In this document: positions 7,311 through 27,456 of the stretch, in pieces
Layout: each line of letters starts with the position of its first letter
Numbering within the stretch: position 1 is the first letter of the stretch
Assembly (NCBI GenBank): GCA_021845665.1
Contig: JAJZVO010000033.1
Location: forward strand, 1-47,944
Direction of reading: 5' to 3'
DNA from: Bacteroidota bacterium
GTDB lineage: Bacteria > Bacteroidota > Ignavibacteria > Kryptoniales > JAKASW01
Length of the DNA: 47,944 nucleotides
Program-made: the position numbers and the translations under genes
Notes under the pieces: model-generated
Told to the model about the DNA's origin: nothing
Databases searched by the model: none
What the model saw: only the letters and a program-made list of their open reading frames with translations

Positions 7311-7406
7311 CTATTTGATGAGAACCTTCAAGGCTATGTATGTTACGAAAGAAATAATGAACCACCGGACGAATTCTCTCAGATACGGCGATTTTATTTT
7401 ATTCAT
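7311..7406 (-). CDS. 31-residue small membrane protein, copy B
   Basis: A 31-codon ORF whose ATG overlaps the MauE-like stop as ATGA, which argues for real, coupled translation. It has a basic, proline-containing N-terminus (IKSP at 4-7, REFVR at 10-14) and then one hydrophobic stretch (about 15-30) ending in Lys. It matches the small ORF at 12834-12929 at 16 of 31 positions with equal length and no gaps. I do not recognise the family. A single-pass membrane peptide with the N-terminus in the cytoplasm is inferred. It is the last gene of the cluster. Confidence 0.7.
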   Translation of the reverse strand: MNKIKSPYLREFVRWFIISFVTYIALKVLIK

Positions 7407-7900
7407 TGCCATCCTCTTACTCGTTTCGCAAGTCCTGTTTGACTCTTCAATTTCATCAGCTCGTCGATACTCCATCTCTGCGTTTTTACCGTCGAAAGCC
7501 AGGTTGCTACCGAAAATAAAAAGAAATCTCTCGCTACTGAGGTGAGGCCAATATTTTTGCGGACGACGGATCCGAAGCATCCGCAAGCACCCCTGTTCCC
7601 TCGTATGATCTCGACTACGACGGCGATTAAGAAGATCAGAGAAAGAAATGAAAGGACCGCCGCAGAGAGTCTGCTGAAGAAGCCTGCGGCGAGGGAGAGG
7701 CCGAATGAAATCTCTGCTGAGACAACTGCAATTGCGAATGCGGGGACGAGACGTAATGGCACGATATCGTACGCAGAGATGGTGAGAATGAAGCCGTGCA
7801 TTGAAGCGGCTTTCAATATTCCAGCAGCGGCGAATATGGCGCCGAGCAGCACTCTGGCCGCAAAAGCGACGGCATCCCGTTTTGATTCTCCGCCGGGCAT
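7403..7900 (-). CDS. MauE/DoxX-like redox-associated membrane protein
   Basis: A 165-residue protein with four hydrophobic segments (about 11-33, 51-74, 78-99 and a shorter one near 122-135) and the family-typical CGC pair in GNRGACGCFGS (C106, C108). MauE-type proteins support cysteine oxidation or reduction in the periplasm, usually with a thioredoxin-like partner. Such a partner is encoded in the same cluster at 12219-12743. It starts 10 nt after the Yip1-family gene and is coupled to the downstream 31-residue ORF. A role in redox handling of the two-cysteine peptide is inference. Confidence 0.8.
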   Translation of the reverse strand: MPGGESKRDAVAFAARVLLGAIFAAAGILKAASMHGFILTISAYDIVPLRLVPAFAIAVVSAEISFGLSLAAGFFSRLSAAVLSFLSLIFLIAVVVEIIRGNRGACGCFGSVVRKNIGLTSVARDFFLFSVATWLSTVKTQRWSIDELMKLKSQTGLAKRVRGWQ

Positions 7901-7910
7901 ACGGTAACCG

Positions 7911-8624
7911 TCAGTTCATCGGATGGAAAGGTGAGCCGTTCGATACGGCGCTCATCACCATCTGGAAGGCAATTCCGAGAAGCCAGACTCCAGTAACCAC
8001 GAAAGCCGACTTCAACTTGCGGTAGCCGGTTATGACAGAAACGCCGATCGTCAGTGTGGCGAGATACCAGATCGTGAAAATATTGATGCTGTTCAGGAGA
8101 ATGAAAAGCGGCAGGTCCGACCTCTTGTTTTTCATAAAAAAATCCAGTCCGACTATCGCCTGCAAATCGGTGATGTGCTGCACGGCTCCGATTCCTTTCA
8201 GGTACAAAACAAGAACGTTCACCACGCTCATGAAAAGAAGTATCATCTCTGAGTAGGCCACTATTGAAAAGACCGTTCTGTATTTGAATTCAGGAGGTGC
8301 ATCGAGAAGGATGCATGTAAAATAAAGGAGGGCGGCAAGGAATCCCCATTTGATCAGCAAGACGATCGGGACAAAGAGCAATCCTACGTACTCGAAGCGT
8401 TCCGAAAGTGCCAGCGCTCTGACGGCTTCTTGGGCACTTAACTTGCTCAAGAGCATATGGTAGGCAATTTGATTTGAGAATGGCAACATGAACCATGCGA
8501 GGAGAAGCGAGAGTGTCGATACTGTTATGAAGGCAATGAGCCATCTTGGCCGTTCCTTCAAATCCAGGAAGACGTCTGTCGGAGTGGCAAAAACGTTCAC
8601 AAGATTCGACAGCTTCAGAGCCAT
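7911..8624 (-). CDS. Yip1-family integral membrane protein
   Basis: A 237-residue protein with about five to six membrane segments. The N-terminus NVFATPTDVFLDLKERPRWL is the familiar opening of bacterial Yip1/DUF1282-type proteins (F..P...F..L...P.W). It overlaps the ABC ATPase gene by 10 bp, so it is part of the exporter unit. Function in bacteria is not settled; here it may be an accessory membrane subunit of the transporter or an immunity-type protein. Both are guesses. Confidence 0.75.
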   Translation of the reverse strand: MALKLSNLVNVFATPTDVFLDLKERPRWLIAFITVSTLSLLLAWFMLPFSNQIAYHMLLSKLSAQEAVRALALSERFEYVGLLFVPIVLLIKWGFLAALLYFTCILLDAPPEFKYRTVFSIVAYSEMILLFMSVVNVLVLYLKGIGAVQHITDLQAIVGLDFFMKNKRSDLPLFILLNSINIFTIWYLATLTIGVSVITGYRKLKSAFVVTGVWLLGIAFQMVMSAVSNGSPFHPMN

Positions 8625-9400
8625 GACAACTTCTTTTTTTCCTTTCGCTCTCCGTCTTTCGAGACAACGTCGATGAAGATCTCTTCCAGGGACTGATACG
8701 TTTCCTGGCTCACCTCGTCTTTGATCTTCTTCCGGATATCTTCGGTCCTGGATTGAAAAACTAGCTTGCCTTTGTTGATAATTGCGACCTCGTCACAGAG
8801 CTTTTCGACAGTGTCGAGATTATGAGAACTCATAAAAACAGATTCGCCTTTATTGACTATTCTTCTGAGCATATCCTTAATTTGTTTGGCGGAGGTGGGG
8901 TCAATTCCTTCCAAAGGTTCATCCAGGATTAACAATCTAGGTTGATGAATAACGGCAGCAGCGAGAGAGACTTTCTTCTTCATCCCCGCAGAAAACGATT
9001 CTATCATTTCTTTTTTCTTTTCTTCCAGATCGAGGAAAGCAAGCAATTCATCTACTCTCGCGGCAGCTTCTTTAGGAGGGATGCCGTACATTGCGGCGGC
9101 AAAGTTCAAGTATTCCCTGCTGGTAAGCTTATCGATGTAGTATGGGGTTTCCAGAACGAATCCGACATCTCGCTTGTATTCGTAAGCGGTTGAACTGATT
9201 TCATTTCCAAAGAGTCGCACCTCTCCTTTGTCCTTTTTCGCTAGCCCGGCGAGGATTTTTATCGTCGTAGATTTTCCCGCACCATTTGGTCCTACGAAAC
9301 CGAACAATGTTCCCTTTTCAACGCTTAGATTGAGGTCACAAAGTGCTTTTACGTTTACGCGGTATGATTTTTCTAAACCGATTAGTTCTATTGCCTTCAT
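8615..9400 (-). CDS. ABC transporter ATP-binding protein
   Basis: A 261-residue single-domain ATPase. Walker A is GPNGAGKST (37-45). The signature is a slightly unusual ESFSAGMKKKVSLA (SAGM in place of SGGQ). Walker B is LLILDEPLEGIDP, and the switch His is in MSSHNLDTVE. It is of the ABC-2/drug- and peptide-exporter type. The start overlaps the permease stop (ATGA) and the end overlaps the Yip1 gene, so the three are translationally coupled. The substrate is probably the peptide encoded upstream in the same cluster. Confidence 0.92.
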   Translation of the reverse strand: MKAIELIGLEKSYRVNVKALCDLNLSVEKGTLFGFVGPNGAGKSTTIKILAGLAKKDKGEVRLFGNEISSTAYEYKRDVGFVLETPYYIDKLTSREYLNFAAAMYGIPPKEAAARVDELLAFLDLEEKKKEMIESFSAGMKKKVSLAAAVIHQPRLLILDEPLEGIDPTSAKQIKDMLRRIVNKGESVFMSSHNLDTVEKLCDEVAIINKGKLVFQSRTEDIRKKIKDEVSQETYQSLEEIFIDVVSKDGERKEKKKLSWL

Positions 9401-10932
9401 GTGGGGTCCTCGAGCAATGTCTGCATTTCACTCGACACTTTTGCGGCCCATGCTGGTATCAACCATACGTATGTCGGGAGAAACAAACCTAACACAAAAA
9501 ATGGCAGCAGAGCCGATCCTAGATAGAGGATAAAGGCATAGACAGCCGCTGCTGCGAACTCAGCAGGCAAGATCAGAAGAATCGCGACTGCTGGACCCCT
9601 CAACGCCTTTCTGGAGGAGAGAGCAAGAGTATTTTCAAGTTGGACGAGCACAAGCGGGAGACAGATTGAATATCCCGCTCCATAAGCCAGTTCAGAGGCA
9701 GGCGGTCTCAAGAGTATTCCGACGGCCGCAACGATCGAAAGGTTTGCAAGAGAAACAAGGCTCCATGCCGATATAGTCTTAACCAGGACAAACCTTTTCA
9801 CGTTGAATGGGAAAATTGCAAGATGTTTAAGGCGCAGGCCGTGTTTGCCGAGGTGTCCTTCTGTAATCTGAAAACCCAGAATTTGAGTGACAAAGAAAAT
9901 CGCTAACATAACGTAACCGAATCGATACTGGAGATGAGAAGACGCCTTCGCTAAGAGAATAACTATCATAACAGGAAGCAGCGGAAAGACGAAGAAGAAC
10001 TTCTCTTCTTTCTGGAGTATTTTCCACTCTAAGGAAATAAGAGAGCTTGTCTTTTGTGAATAGACCTTCGTCCCATCGGTTATATGCCCAATTAAGCCTT
10101 CTTGTCTTGAGCTCGCAATATTCGTTAGGGATGAATTTGATCTTTGCTTTGCGGAGGTCCTCTTCATGCCGCCCAAGGACGACGAGAGTCGAAAATGGAG
10201 AGCGGGTCTATCTAACAGCGAGTCTGCCACCAGAGTCGCCGCTGCTAAAGCGACAAACAGAAGGGCGAGGCGAGTGATTTCAAGGTATGCCGTGCCGATG
10301 GACAGGGTGAGAATACCCTGAAACCCGCCGACAAATTCGGATACGACCGGCAGATTCCCGCTCCCTCCAAATTTTACATGCATAAGACTCAGGGCAAGAT
10401 ACGGCACGAAAAGCAGAACGCTTACAACATCCGTGACAGTCCTTACCCCGAACCGATGCGATAGCGCTTTAAGGATAAGAAACAACATGAAGAAGATTTC
10501 TGAAATCACAAGATAGGTGAAAGCGAAAAGTAGGGGTACAACAATTGCGAGCAGAGCACCCATTCTCATCCAAACACTTATGAAAGCACAAAGCATTGGG
10601 AGCGCGTACAGAATCATCCTCTTGTCGGCCGTGAACAATAAAAAGCGAACTGAAACAGAACTCATGCGAGATAAGGGGAACACACTTAGTGCATAACCAT
10701 CGAGAATTGTATTAACCTGGCGAAGTCGGGCATTAACAAATACATATTCATAAAGCAGGAGAAAGCCGATGAACATTCCTGAAAGGTGTCGTTCATTTGT
10801 AACGACTGATGCCAATAGCAATCCCGAAAGGACTATCCCCATAAGAGTGACCAACGCATACGACAGGACGGGGCTTGGAGTTTCTCTCCCCGACGCTGCG
10901 AGGTTGGTTTTTATTGCGATACTCAGATTCAT
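9397..10932 (-). CDS. ABC-2-like exporter permease
   Basis: A 511-residue very hydrophobic protein with two halves of about six membrane segments each. They are separated by a polar loop near residues 245-310 rich in Ser/Lys (GGMKRTSAKQRSNSSLTN). It is coupled to the ATPase by ATGA. No peptidase domain is present, which fits with the C39 peptidase being encoded separately upstream. It is separated from the peptide gene by a perfect stem-loop. Family assignment rests on topology and context rather than a sharp motif. Confidence 0.8.
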   Translation of the reverse strand: MNLSIAIKTNLAASGRETPSPVLSYALVTLMGIVLSGLLLASVVTNERHLSGMFIGFLLLYEYVFVNARLRQVNTILDGYALSVFPLSRMSSVSVRFLLFTADKRMILYALPMLCAFISVWMRMGALLAIVVPLLFAFTYLVISEIFFMLFLILKALSHRFGVRTVTDVVSVLLFVPYLALSLMHVKFGGSGNLPVVSEFVGGFQGILTLSIGTAYLEITRLALLFVALAAATLVADSLLDRPALHFRLSSSLGGMKRTSAKQRSNSSLTNIASSRQEGLIGHITDGTKVYSQKTSSLISLEWKILQKEEKFFFVFPLLPVMIVILLAKASSHLQYRFGYVMLAIFFVTQILGFQITEGHLGKHGLRLKHLAIFPFNVKRFVLVKTISAWSLVSLANLSIVAAVGILLRPPASELAYGAGYSICLPLVLVQLENTLALSSRKALRGPAVAILLILPAEFAAAAVYAFILYLGSALLPFFVLGLFLPTYVWLIPAWAAKVSSEMQTLLEDPT

Positions 10933-11043: not shown

Positions 11044-11271
11044 CTAGACAGGCGACGGGATGCAAGCAGCGGCTATTCCGAATCCGCCGCTTGCTATGAT
11101 CGAGGCTGCCGCCCCCCAACCAAGGGGACCTGTCAGCGCTGCTCCAATGAACCCGAAGCCAACAGCGGCCAGACCTAGTGCGCATCCCAATGTTCCACCG
11201 GCTATTGCCAACATCTCGGTGTTGGTAAGTTGGAGCGTAGCAGACGGTCGACTGGGCCTCGCCGAAGCCAT
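11044..11271 (-). CDS. Double-glycine-leader, two-cysteine bacteriocin-like peptide precursor (frame possibly broken)
   Basis: From ATG 11271 the 75-residue product has a leader part with TNTEMLAIAGG (Gly25-Gly26), the classic shape of a C39-cleaved leader. The predicted core is 49 residues, rich in Gly/Ala and aromatic, with only two cysteines, near its ends (C30 and C70; core positions 4 and 44). A C39 peptidase, thioredoxin-like and MauE-like genes and an ABC exporter are in the same cluster. There is no Shine-Dalgarno for this ATG. A strong one lies 50 nt further up ahead of a different frame that reads as a Sec signal peptide. The gene may therefore be frameshifted or start differently. 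Class II bacteriocin-like is inferred from shape; I know of no close relative. Confidence 0.65.
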   Translation of the reverse strand: MASARPSRPSATLQLTNTEMLAIAGGTLGCALGLAAVGFGFIGAALTGPLGWGAAASIIASGGFGIAAACIPSPV

Positions 11272-11331
11272 GTCGTCAGCACTATCATGAGCACTAAGAT
11301 ACCTGAGAGTATCTTCTTCGTGTTTACCTCC
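11272..11331 (-). other. Orphan Shine-Dalgarno plus signal-peptide frame ahead of the Gly-Gly peptide
   Basis: GGAGGT (11331-11326) is followed 4 nt later by ACG (11321-11319) where ATG would be ideal. Reading on gives KKILSGILVLMIVLTT, a textbook Sec signal core. One extra base near 11273 would join it in frame to MASARPSRPS and the Gly-Gly leader. So either the ancestral precursor began here with a Sec signal and has lost its start codon and one base, or the sequence has two errors. A GTG at 11333 in the same frame is another possible start. Confidence 0.5.
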
Positions 11332-11460
11332 ACTTGTTCTTGGTGATTGTTTAGTTTAGCATTCTTGCTCACTCCGGCCTGCCTGTCTTTCGCAGACCTG
11401 GAAAGCACGGTGCGGCGGCCGAACCGCATCATACATCCGCATCCGCAATCGACAGTCCAG

Positions 11461-11477
11461 TCCCGACAAAGCCGGGA
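11461..11477. repeat. Short palindrome TCCCGACAAAGCCGGGA
   Basis: 5-bp arms with a 7-nt loop inside the 190-bp gap between the 28-codon ORF and the peptide precursor. The rest of that gap holds an open frame (to 11528) that I regard as non-coding. It belongs to the same style of palindrome as those at 16915-16934 and 44177-44193. Confidence 0.35.
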
Positions 11478-11524
11478 TCCTTTCGGATGAGCAAGTTGTG
11501 CGCGCACAAACTCCTTCATTCTCA

Positions 11525-11611
11525 TCATTCATTGCCGGTTTTTTGTCTATTTCTCCATTCCAGGAATGAAAAAGAGATTGTCAGCCCGACTATGAACGCT
11601 CCATGAATCAT
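11525..11611 (-). CDS. 28-residue putative small membrane protein
   Basis: ATG follows directly on the TAG of the C39 peptidase gene, with GGGAG about 11 nt upstream, inside the peptidase C-terminus. The product has a hydrophobic first half (MIHGAFIVGLTISFSFLEW) and a polar basic tail (RNRQKTGNE). Not related by eye to the two 31-residue paralogues. Its coupling and hydrophobicity support a real micro-ORF, but the length allows chance. Confidence 0.4.
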   Translation of the reverse strand: MIHGAFIVGLTISFSFLEWRNRQKTGNE

Positions 11612-12229
11612 CTAATTGTTTCTCCCTTTCTTGAACACAAGTGTTTCCCCGTTCCATATCTTCCGGAAATTAACGAGGCTCATTTCTACCTTTCCGAGAG
11701 CGGGGTCGGAGAGGACGATATCTCCGTCCCGCGTAACACTGTCGGCCACGACGAAATGATCGCCGCGAACGAAGACTATTGCCGGCATCGGCGCCTTAAC
11801 GAAGTCTTTGATATTGTATATCCAGCCATCCGCGCCTAGACCTTTCGTCTCGGCCATCTCTTTGAGAGACAACATGCTCGAGCCTTTGGCGGTTAACCCG
11901 ATATGTCTGTCGATTTCGGATAAGGTTGAACGAATTCCGTAATGATCGAAAATCATTTTCAGCGACGCGGGCCCGCAGTTGTTTGGCATGGTTTGCATGG
12001 TTACTCCGTTCGTGCCGAGGTACCTAGCGCCGATCCACCAGGCCGAGACTTCGCCGAACGAGTTGGGTGAAGTCAGCACATATGCCGCGCCCGCAAGAAC
12101 CGCCGCAAAAAGCAAAAGGGCCGACAGCCCTGCGGCTGCCAAGAGTTTTCTTCGTCTTGAAGATGTCTGCCTTTCGAGCACTCCTGTCAAAGGACTTTCC
12201 TCCGGCAATTGGCTGGTTTCATCTTTCAA
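11612..12229 (-). CDS. Membrane-anchored stand-alone C39-family peptidase
   Basis: A 205-residue protein. The N-terminal basic stretch SSRRRK precedes one membrane helix (about 28-52), which by positive-inside logic puts the rest in the periplasm. The domain then shows the C39 triad: Cys85 in MPNNCGPASLKMIF, His158 in RGDHFVVAD and Asp175 in LSDPALGK. C39 peptidases cut after Gly-Gly leaders and are usually fused to ABC exporters; this one is separate. The start is TTG at 12229, overlapping the thioredoxin-like stop by 11 bp. The likely substrate is the TNTEMLAIAGG precursor 340 bp downstream. Confidence 0.88.
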   Translation of the reverse strand: MKDETSQLPEESPLTGVLERQTSSRRRKLLAAAGLSALLLFAAVLAGAAYVLTSPNSFGEVSAWWIGARYLGTNGVTMQTMPNNCGPASLKMIFDHYGIRSTLSEIDRHIGLTAKGSSMLSLKEMAETKGLGADGWIYNIKDFVKAPMPAIVFVRGDHFVVADSVTRDGDIVLSDPALGKVEMSLVNFRKIWNGETLVFKKGRNN

Positions 12230-12743
12230 TGCGATGTTTTTCTCCCATGAATGCTTCTATGGATCGATCTAGTATGCCGGGCCTGACTTCCCCCAACACT
12301 TCGTTTCTCAGGACGAGATTGCTGTCGACAAGAAATGTTACAGGCACCATAGATATCCCGAACGCCTTTTCAATTTCTCCATTGGTGCCGACATACACCG
12401 GGAACGATACGCGGCTTTTCGAAACCAGCTCTCTTGTTGTGTCGGGCTTGCTCATCGATAGGCCGGCGAAATGAAGAACATCGCCATATTTCTGCTTCAT
12501 CGCGCTGAATACCGAAAGCATCGCGATGCAATGAGGACATTCAGCACTGAATATAATGAGAACGCTTCTTTTGTGAATGAAACTACCGCTGGTGATTTTC
12601 TTCCCGGCAAGACTTGTCAGGTTGATTCGTGGGATGGTCTTCCCAATGGGAAGCGGTTTGACGTCTATGCTCGCATGAAGATAAGTCAAGACAACGACGG
12701 GTATCGCAATAATTACTACTAACGCAACCAAGAAGCGATCCAT
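12219..12743 (-). CDS. TlpA/AhpC-like thioredoxin-fold protein, membrane-anchored
   Basis: A 174-residue protein with an N-terminal membrane anchor (about 4-22) and a periplasmic thioredoxin-fold domain. The active site is FSAECPHCIAML (C69, C72) and the cis-proline is in ISMVPVTFLVD. CPHC is the DsbA-like dipeptide, which favours oxidising chemistry. AAGGAA sits just before the ATG. It is coupled to the C39 gene. A role in making the C30-C70 disulfide of the cluster peptide, with the MauE-like protein as partner, is inference. Confidence 0.85.
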   Translation of the reverse strand: MDRFLVALVVIIAIPVVVLTYLHASIDVKPLPIGKTIPRINLTSLAGKKITSGSFIHKRSVLIIFSAECPHCIAMLSVFSAMKQKYGDVLHFAGLSMSKPDTTRELVSKSRVSFPVYVGTNGEIEKAFGISMVPVTFLVDSNLVLRNEVLGEVRPGILDRSIEAFMGEKHRIER

Positions 12744-12931: not shown

Positions 12932-13837
12932 CTACTCTCCTTCTCTGGAAGAATTTAACAAAAGCGATCTTCCAGGCAAATCATTTGCTCCGTATTGCGC
13001 ATACGTCAAATACTGCCAAATGTCTGTAATGGCCTGGCCGGCAGATCCGCCGAGAGCGCCAGCGGTCGCGCCCGCACCGGCGCATGCACCCAGCGTCAGT
13101 TCCGCACACCCTGTTGCAATAGCGCCGAGCGCTCCCGTGACGGCTCCACCGACGTCCGCTCCGACGATTGGACCGATTGCTCCTCCAATCCCCGAGCCAT
13201 TTCCTGATCCGGGCGGTTCCGTCGGCACTTTAACAGAATCCACTACATCGACTCTTTGATTGCTGTTTGTTGCTGAGAGCGCTTCCTCCCAGTTTTGGTA
13301 ATTTGCAGCCCAGTAACTGGCTGAACTTTGAGCAACCGAAGCCACCATCAGGACGATGGCGGAACTGTCCGGTCCGAGTGTGTTGTACGCTTGTTCTTCT
13401 ATAGTATTCAGGGAAAAGAAAAACTGTGCCGAATCCTGTGCTGATAACGAATCGACTAATGTGTATATGTTCCTGATGTATCCCATTTGTTCACTGGACA
13501 GGGAGCCGGCCGACACCGAACTGACTTTCAACTTACTTGGATGGAACGGTGCCTCAGATGCGGTTATAAACTGGCTTATTGACAGTTCGCCTTGTCCTTT
13601 GCTCTGTAGGAACGTGATGCCATAGTTCTGAACATCACTCAAAAGGCTTCCTTCACTAGCTTTTGACGCGACTGATATGCCACTGCGCGTCAATCTCTGG
13701 AAAATGTAACTCAATCCTTCGTTATGCTCCTGCCCGACGTATGAGTAGAGATTCTTGAATTGCCGCTGGTTGTTTGAAACCGGGTTGGCCCCGCGTTCGG
13801 AACATGATTGGATGATAAATGAAGTTGAGATCATCAT
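12932..13837 (-). CDS. Lipoprotein with C-terminal glycine-zipper, two-Cys tail
   Basis: A 301-residue protein with a lipobox-like IIQSC (Cys12) and a GQEHNEGL segment (35-42). A helical-looking middle follows, then, after a PPGSGNGSG linker (about 208-216), a tail of about 60 residues made almost only of Gly, Ala, Ile and Val with two cysteines (C244, C252). That tail resembles membrane-inserting glycine zippers. The signal sequence from ATG 13837 is short; the frame stays open upstream with RWVALT but no start codon. It heads the minus-strand cluster. It may be a second effector or an accessory or immunity lipoprotein; function unknown. Confidence 0.7.
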   Translation of the reverse strand: MMISTSFIIQSCSERGANPVSNNQRQFKNLYSYVGQEHNEGLSYIFQRLTRSGISVASKASEGSLLSDVQNYGITFLQSKGQGELSISQFITASEAPFHPSKLKVSSVSAGSLSSEQMGYIRNIYTLVDSLSAQDSAQFFFSLNTIEEQAYNTLGPDSSAIVLMVASVAQSSASYWAANYQNWEEALSATNSNQRVDVVDSVKVPTEPPGSGNGSGIGGAIGPIVGADVGGAVTGALGAIATGCAELTLGACAGAGATAGALGGSAGQAITDIWQYLTYAQYGANDLPGRSLLLNSSREGE

Positions 13838-26799: not shown

Positions 26800-27443
26800 A
26801 TGAAGAAACGGTTTTGCGTGTTGCCGGTTGCCGTCATTTTCTTGAGTTTGACTTCCGCATCATTCGCACAGGGGCTTACTCTGAAGGACAGGTCTGTACT
26901 CGAATTGAACCTGGGCATCTGGGGCGGAGCGAGTGTCCCGAATACCATTGGAATCAGCGGAATCCAATCGAATGCCAAGACCAGCTCATTCGTCGGGAGT
27001 ATCCTGTATGCCTATGGGATTCAGAAAAACATGTCTGTTACCCTAGCGCCGGCGTTCTCGCGGCCGGAGCTAGTGCGAACGTCGGTTTGCCGGGTGTCAG
27101 TCAGGAGTCCGGAAGCGTTGCCCCTTTGCTGCTTGGTGCTCGCTGCTACGTTCCATTGCCGGAAGTAGGAACGAAGGTCCGTCCGTTTGTCTCGCTCGGC
27201 GTCGGGACTTATCTCGGTTTTGAATCGAGCAGTTCGATTTGATTCACGGTTGTACAGGAAAGCCATACCGAGAGCGCGTTCGGAGGAAGGATCGGTGCGG
27301 GATTCGATTTCTGCCTGAACGACAACTTCAAGTTAGCGGCAAACGCCGGGTACAATATCATGTCCGATTTCTCTTCACCCGTCACTGGCAGGATGAACTT
27401 CAACGGCGGCGACTTTTCGGTGGGTGCGGGTTATGCCTTCTGA
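26800..27443 (+). pseudogene. Outer-membrane beta-barrel protein gene with frameshift and nonsense codon
   Basis: It begins with a good signal peptide (KKRFCVLPVAVIFLSLTSAS, FAQ). The frame breaks near 27050 (after SVTLAPAF) and continues two bases over as LLLGARCYVPLPEVG and FVSLGVGTYLGF. It then meets an in-frame TGA (27240-27242) and goes on to FTVVQESHTESAFGGRIGAG, ending FSVGAGYAF with an aromatic last residue, as in porin-like barrels. About 214 codons when repaired. Confidence 0.75.
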
Positions 27444-27456
27444 ACAGGACGAGAAG

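Follow-up and report, generated by a model that had tools for sequence, protein, structure and literature searches.

Double-glycine leaders are signals that are read in the cytoplasm by C39-ABC exporters, and those of class II bacteriocins follow a pattern of the L..xEM..I.GG type. SdpC reportedly uses Sec, and the maturation of SDP is not known to involve a Gly-Gly site or a C39 peptidase. Bacteroidetocins are small cysteine-containing peptides that follow a Gly-Gly leader of 15-16 aa, and their genes adjoin those for a thiol oxidoreductase, a C39-type peptidase domain located within an ABC exporter and a further multi-TM protein (PMC6671954). FapD, of the Pseudomonas Fap amyloid system, shows that periplasmic activity of a C39 peptidase is possible, and its target is called unclear (PMC5557850). 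Protection from SDP, a small disulfide-containing toxin, is provided by the Yip1 protein YknW and an ABC transporter (PMC4887032).

The window, by which we mean the whole 47,944-nt stretch of DNA that was analysed, contains a locus that can be compared with each of these systems. Its features are as follows.

7403-7900, minus strand: MauE/DoxX-like membrane protein
7911-8624, minus strand: Yip1-family membrane protein, distant YknW match
8615-9400, minus strand: ABC ATPase
9397-10932, minus strand: ABC permease-like membrane protein, so named because it adjoins the ATPase; no Pfam family, aligned in G026 only
11044-11193, minus strand: core peptide TLGCALGL...AAACIPSPV (two Cys) and stop
11194-11259, minus strand: double-glycine leader RPSRPSATLQLTNTEMLAIAGG
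11260-11271, minus strand: MASA, probably where the ancestral signal peptide ended (Ala-Ser-Ala site); lies in the double-glycine frame and is seen directly in the sequence, G012 having LASA for comparison
11272-11285, minus strand: zone of the one-base offset between signal frame and double-glycine frame
11202-11321, minus strand: Sec-signal frame (KKILSGILVLMIVLTT...), which departs from the peptide frame and runs into a stop; almost the same as the intact signal peptide of G009
11319-11321, minus strand: ACG codon, at the ATG-start place of the orthologues in G009 and G012
11326-11331, minus strand: Shine-Dalgarno GGAGGT, read directly from the sequence
11331-11333, minus strand: GTG in the signal frame, which could serve as another start
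11362-11496, minus strand: structured RNA element upstream of the precursor
11612-12229, minus strand: membrane-anchored stand-alone C39 peptidase; Q79, C85, H158 and D175 conserved
12219-12743, minus strand: thioredoxin-like/AhpC-TSA protein with an N-terminal hydrophobic anchor and a CPHC motif

The gene at 11612-12229 encodes a Peptidase_C39 domain (PF03412, 97.1 bits, cut-off 22) in a 205-aa protein that carries a membrane anchor at its N-terminus and lacks an ABC domain, and at E <= 1e-5 no other related C39 protein was found in the window's genome. Q79, C85 and H158 are invariant in an alignment of 14 rows and D175 is at least 90% conserved; we take these four to be the catalytic residues of C39. 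The single hydrophobic segment of the protein lies at its N-terminus, with five Lys/Arg before it and none after it, and a crude positive-inside count favours a C39 domain outside in just 13 of 22 proteins, the window's being in favour. As with FapD, the peptidase would lie outside the cytoplasm and have Sec-exported partners, however, Fap proteins are without a canonical C39 site (PMC5557850), whereas here the gene next to that of the peptidase specifies a canonical Gly-Gly precursor; the NCBIfam score for FapD is 38.6 bits, below the cut-off of 330. The bacteroidetocin likeness extends to the small Cys-containing peptide and its Gly-Gly leader, the adjoining thiol oxidoreductase, the C39-type domain and the further multi-TM protein, but here the C39 is stand-alone and anchored, with a Sec signal before the leader (PMC6671954). 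The 15-16-aa leader, the four cysteines of most bacteroidetocins and the position beside a C39-ABC transporter were not found, the window core having two cysteines. The locus shares with SDP and YknWXYZ a small disulfide-type peptide, with disulfides that are presumed here, and the combination of Yip1 and ABC proteins (PMC4887032). The gene at 7911-8624 belongs to the Yip1 family (PF04893, score 53.9, cut-off 28.6) and falls below the NCBIfam cut-off for YknW (64.5 bits, cut-off 110).

A double-glycine leader and a Gly-rich hydrophobic core are shared with class II bacteriocins, and the window leader ends in AGG, but a Sec signal stands in front and a C39-ABC exporter is absent. While class II bacteriocins have no Sec signal and a C39 fused to an ABC exporter, a Sec-type signal was present in 22 of 22 related places and the C39 is stand-alone. 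The window peptide matched no known peptide family in Pfam or NCBIfam. Among 21 relatives only scattered weak matches were seen, with NCBIfam JUQZ_fam_ocin touching four (best E 0.0017) and Pfam Bacteriocin_IIc one of 21 at chance level at most (E 0.12), and the weak NCBIfam and Pfam matches of ten relatives scanned singly were all below cut-off.

The earlier note on this DNA described an ideal Shine-Dalgarno followed by ACG and a one-base frame offset, and this was borne out at base level on the minus strand. GGAGGT (11331-11326) is separated by an AAAC spacer from ACG (11321-11319), from which the frame encodes TKKILSGILVLMIVLTTWLRRG... and runs to a stop ending at 11202. The signal frame could also begin four codons earlier at GTG (11333-11331), which means that ACG is not the sole possible start, but the offset persists. 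One base out of this frame lies the double-glycine ORF, which runs from ATG at 11271 to the stop at 11044 and encodes 75 aa (MASARPSRPSATLQLTNTEMLAIAGG, followed by TLGC...). Its frame is open back to 11355, with ATG, GTG and TTG all absent upstream of 11271, and on inspection of the sequence no Shine-Dalgarno was seen ahead of 11271. MASA sits where signal peptides end and looks like a signal-peptidase site of the Ala-x-Ala type; the ATG at 11271 probably encodes an internal Met and does not serve as a start. As assembled, the window precursor cannot be expressed as one chain, given the ACG at the start place, the offset between the signal and leader frames and the lack of any other start that would give the leader frame a signal. 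No second copy of the precursor or of the RNA was found in the window's genome.

The search for orthologues used the adjoining C39 protein as bait, chosen because it is longer, and covered 391 genomes of the class. Close relatives (E <= 1e-20) occur in 22 of the 391 at 23 places, the window being one, and in all 22 other places a short, ATG-started ORF with a Sec signal follows the C39 gene, signal peptides having been called by hydropathy and by eye. The leader ends in GG in 17 of the 22 and in GA, AG or GS in the other five, the window not being counted. Two relatives from the same genus, G009 and G012, are the most informative, having what the earlier note had named as support, namely ATG in place of ACG and an intact signal and Gly-Gly frame; GG or a near variant occurs in all relatives adjoining the related C39 gene. 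The G009 precursor (JAJYJD010000058.1; MKKILSGILVLMVVLTLSASVAQNRSPSSAPLPTAQMSQAIGG, followed by KNIWLC...) begins from ATG with a signal peptide nearly identical to that in the window's signal frame, and this signal is in frame with IGG. The G012 precursor (JAJZNW010000031.1; MRKVISLTLLLSLALTVLASATPLTP...VTGG, followed by TLACALGL...) has a core close to that of the window; the window core aligns to this intact one at 53%, with a dN/dS of about 0.28. Over codons 2-16, the signal frame is separated from that of G009 by 6.5 synonymous changes and 1.5 that are non-synonymous (dS 1.02, dN 0.05). The Sec-signal core noted previously in the ACG frame is therefore homologous to the ATG-started signal peptide of G009 and, with differences that are mostly synonymous, is not a chance product. 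Taken with the likeness of the core to G012, this makes it most likely that signal and leader, now in different frames, belonged to a single gene until recently. The cores contain two, four or six cysteines, thus an even number, in 21 of 21 counted (G286 and G183 lie outside this count).

In relatives the genes run in the order thioredoxin-like, C39 and precursor, followed variably by ABC genes, Yip1 and MauE. Searching near the 22 related places with the window proteins (tblastn) gave a thioredoxin-like homologue at 19, Yip1 at 13, MauE at nine and the ABC ATPase at five, some loci being truncated at a contig end or at the limit of the extracted stretch. Across 29 loci (L070-L098) the ABC ATPase matched in 20, a generic match, and Yip1 in 15. 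The thioredoxin-like gene of G026 (L046/L067) spans two frames, possibly through a frame error or a lesion. In the window the C39, thioredoxin-like, ABC, Yip1 and MauE genes are all open. At 12932-13837 (minus strand) lies a further ORF, of 301 aa, which begins with a lipobox-like segment (FIIQSC) and is Gly-rich at its end, its likely n-region lying upstream of the first ATG, where a standard start codon is absent. This ORF was considered as an alternative substrate, and no relatives of it were found in the 60 other genomes searched.

Between the C39 gene and the precursor, relatives carry an RNA element of 97-110 nt with a long stem, and its apical loop is predicted to pair with a bulge above the basal helix, giving a loop-bulge pseudoknot. 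The window was left out of all pair counts. RNAalifold on 17 relatives gave 36 pairs, 31 of them with changes on both sides, while a direct count gave 32 of 36, with 89.1% of cells paired; the covariation score was 0.635, compared with 0.319 (sd 0.020) in shuffled alignments and at most 0.179 in slid ones. In 22 of 22 relatives the loop and the bulge are complementary over at least 5 bp, through nine distinct pairings, against 70 of 392 when loops were joined to the different bulges of other sequences. An earlier loop-bulge count, in which bulges were placed by eye and the window was included as the nineteenth sequence, gave 19 of 19 against 9 of 260. At Rfam gathering scores no family matched in 12 related loci, and only sub-threshold matches appeared (E up to 10 in the window stretch, up to 5 in four loci). 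A coding reading of this intergenic stretch, based on the long ORF at 11202-11528, was rejected, the window and G012 differing by an indel and yet keeping DNA and structure; a repeat-element reading of the stretch and of the extra nucleotides described below was rejected as well, each being single-copy in the genome.

A model of this RNA has hits in 21 of the 391 genomes, 20 of which are among the 22 that bear the C39 gene. The RNA occurs without C39 in G183, and the C39 without RNA in G092 and G058, in the latter of which a weak RNA hit was found later. The model was trained on 17 related elements, which it finds by construction; the held-out hits are those in G207, G324, G286, G183, the window and, weakly, G058. 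The first four of these behave like the training elements, with a Sec-signal peptide gene after the RNA each time. All 21 strong hits in relatives are followed, 32-67 nt downstream, by the precursor ATG with a Shine-Dalgarno-like stretch and a Sec-signal ORF, a count that excludes a weak second hit in G318 (E 0.004) with no such ORF after it. The ACG of the window, 40 nt past the 3' end of the element, occupies the place of the ATG in relatives. This RNA of the 5' untranslated region probably sets expression of the precursor. The window copy has about 26 extra nucleotides in its 5' strand (within 11461-11488) that occur in no relative and are unique in the genome, and on account of these it scores low (43.6 bits, compared with 84.5 for G012 and 76.2 for G009).

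The earlier note offered three explanations for the broken frame, namely fresh inactivation, sequence error, or a non-canonical start combined with a shift; the first two stand, with inactivation favoured, and the last is unsupported since every relative reads in one frame from ATG. We think it likely that the window locus is a relic which has lost its peptide and kept the processing and protection genes, in a family that would use Sec and then a C39 peptidase outside the cytoplasm. The ACG, the frame offset and the interrupted RNA, together with the open neighbour genes, fit this loss. Counterpoints to this reading are the positive-inside bias in just 13 of the 22 proteins, the five non-GG leaders and the presence of the ATPase near only five of the 22 places. 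It is also conceivable, but unlikely, that the gene is intact in the organism and that the ACG and the offset are assembly errors. The genome is in 135 contigs at 95.6% completeness and 3.12% contamination, the core and signal both look selected, and the two-frame thioredoxin-like gene of G026 makes frame errors plausible in such assemblies. However, independent errors in start codon and frame would be required, plus an unrelated 26-nt stretch in the RNA, while the neighbour genes are open and the other broken gene of the contig (26800-27445) has a nonsense codon beside its offset and looks like real decay.

Two further readings would leave the locus functional, and both are highly improbable. 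Translation from ACG (or from GTG at 11333) with a ribosomal frame shift would give a fused precursor, and the ideal Shine-Dalgarno, the correct spacing of the ACG and the selected appearance of both frames are in keeping with this. Nonetheless, no relative needs such a mechanism, all having a single frame from ATG where a programmed shift would keep the two-frame layout, and a slippery heptamer was not seen at the junction; programmed frameshifting and ACG initiation were rejected on the strength of these single-frame relatives. We give equally little credence to the 75-aa ORF from ATG 11271 being a double-glycine precursor of the classical, cytoplasmic kind that lacks a signal peptide, even though this ORF is open and its leader canonical. 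No Shine-Dalgarno was seen before 11271, MASA sits at the usual end of a signal peptide, and the sole related C39 protein found in the genome (E <= 1e-5) is the anchored one of 205 aa without an ABC domain. Moreover, none of the relatives starts at the equivalent of 11271 with its own ribosome binding site and no signal peptide; orthologues of that kind are what the earlier note said would refute a hidden signal.

Returning to the reading of the window as a relic, its intact relatives appear to form a family of small precursors in which a Sec signal and then a double-glycine leader, both of them processing signals, precede a short hydrophobic core with paired cysteines. In these relatives the precursor would be exported through Sec and lose its signal peptide, the thioredoxin-like protein, in some genomes with MauE, would handle the disulfides of the core, and the membrane-anchored C39, positioned at the outer face of the inner membrane, would make its cut behind Gly-Gly. 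This order of Sec export and then C39 cleavage outside the cytoplasm had been proposed for the window, and the sequences and gene order of 22 out of 22 related places support it. Once released, the peptide would most likely act as a bacteriocin-like toxin, and the ABC transporter and Yip1 protein, where present, may serve self-protection or removal, as YknWXYZ does for SDP. With ABC ATPase homologues near so few related places, this protection step would not be general. The double signals, the gene order, the conserved peptidase residues, the even cysteine numbers and the RNA structure are seen at the level of sequence, while a toxin role is suggested by likeness to bacteroidetocins and to SDP with YknWXYZ.

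The window holds a genuine member, inactivated or else misassembled, of a family that is consistent and apparently undescribed, and this family and its RNA are of greater interest than the broken copy. In the open PMC literature, with subscription papers and bioRxiv mostly outside the search, we found neither a Sec-signal and double-glycine precursor with a stand-alone C39 nor anything on the upstream RNA. On balance, we lean toward the view that genomes of the class Ignavibacteria, with a related form in Acidobacteriota, hold an undescribed Sec and Gly-Gly peptide system with a dedicated, membrane-anchored C39 outside, and that a new pseudoknotted cis-acting RNA, so far found almost only before these precursors, controls those of the Ignavibacteria. 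If true, this would be a second route to double-glycine peptides in two-membrane bacteria, with Sec in front and C39 outside, and would provide an enzyme-substrate pair for stand-alone C39 peptidases, of which the one studied case, FapD, is described without a clear target (PMC5557850). The RNA also offers a search handle that reaches these hard-to-annotate peptides directly, as it did in four genomes outside model building. One of these, G183, has the RNA (at about 7885-7989 of L170) and a CPFC thioredoxin-like gene, named by eye and without a tblastn match from the window protein, ahead of a Sec-signal, Cys-containing peptide. The 18 kb covered there (L170, G183:C123:12000-30000) showed no C39 relative, and the peptide has no GG; in this one case, where the peptidase is absent the cleavage site is absent too.

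A simple filter for a signal and a GG/GA leader, which admits some unrelated ORFs, was given 44 of 72 loci, Acidobacteriota included, and returned 32 ORFs that lie no more than 2.5 kb from a C39 gene and share its strand, and eight elsewhere. In Acidobacteriota (L078, L080-L084, L086, L090, L092, L093 and L096) Gly-rich peptides with a signal and GG/GA follow related C39 genes, some in tandem, and the RNA had no match in these loci. On the window's own contig, the plus-strand region 26800-27445 is the counterpart of a G012 gene whose 214-aa product has a signal-like N-terminus; the window copy is broken by a one-base offset and by a stop codon where G012 has Gly, and such decay is therefore not confined to the precursor locus.
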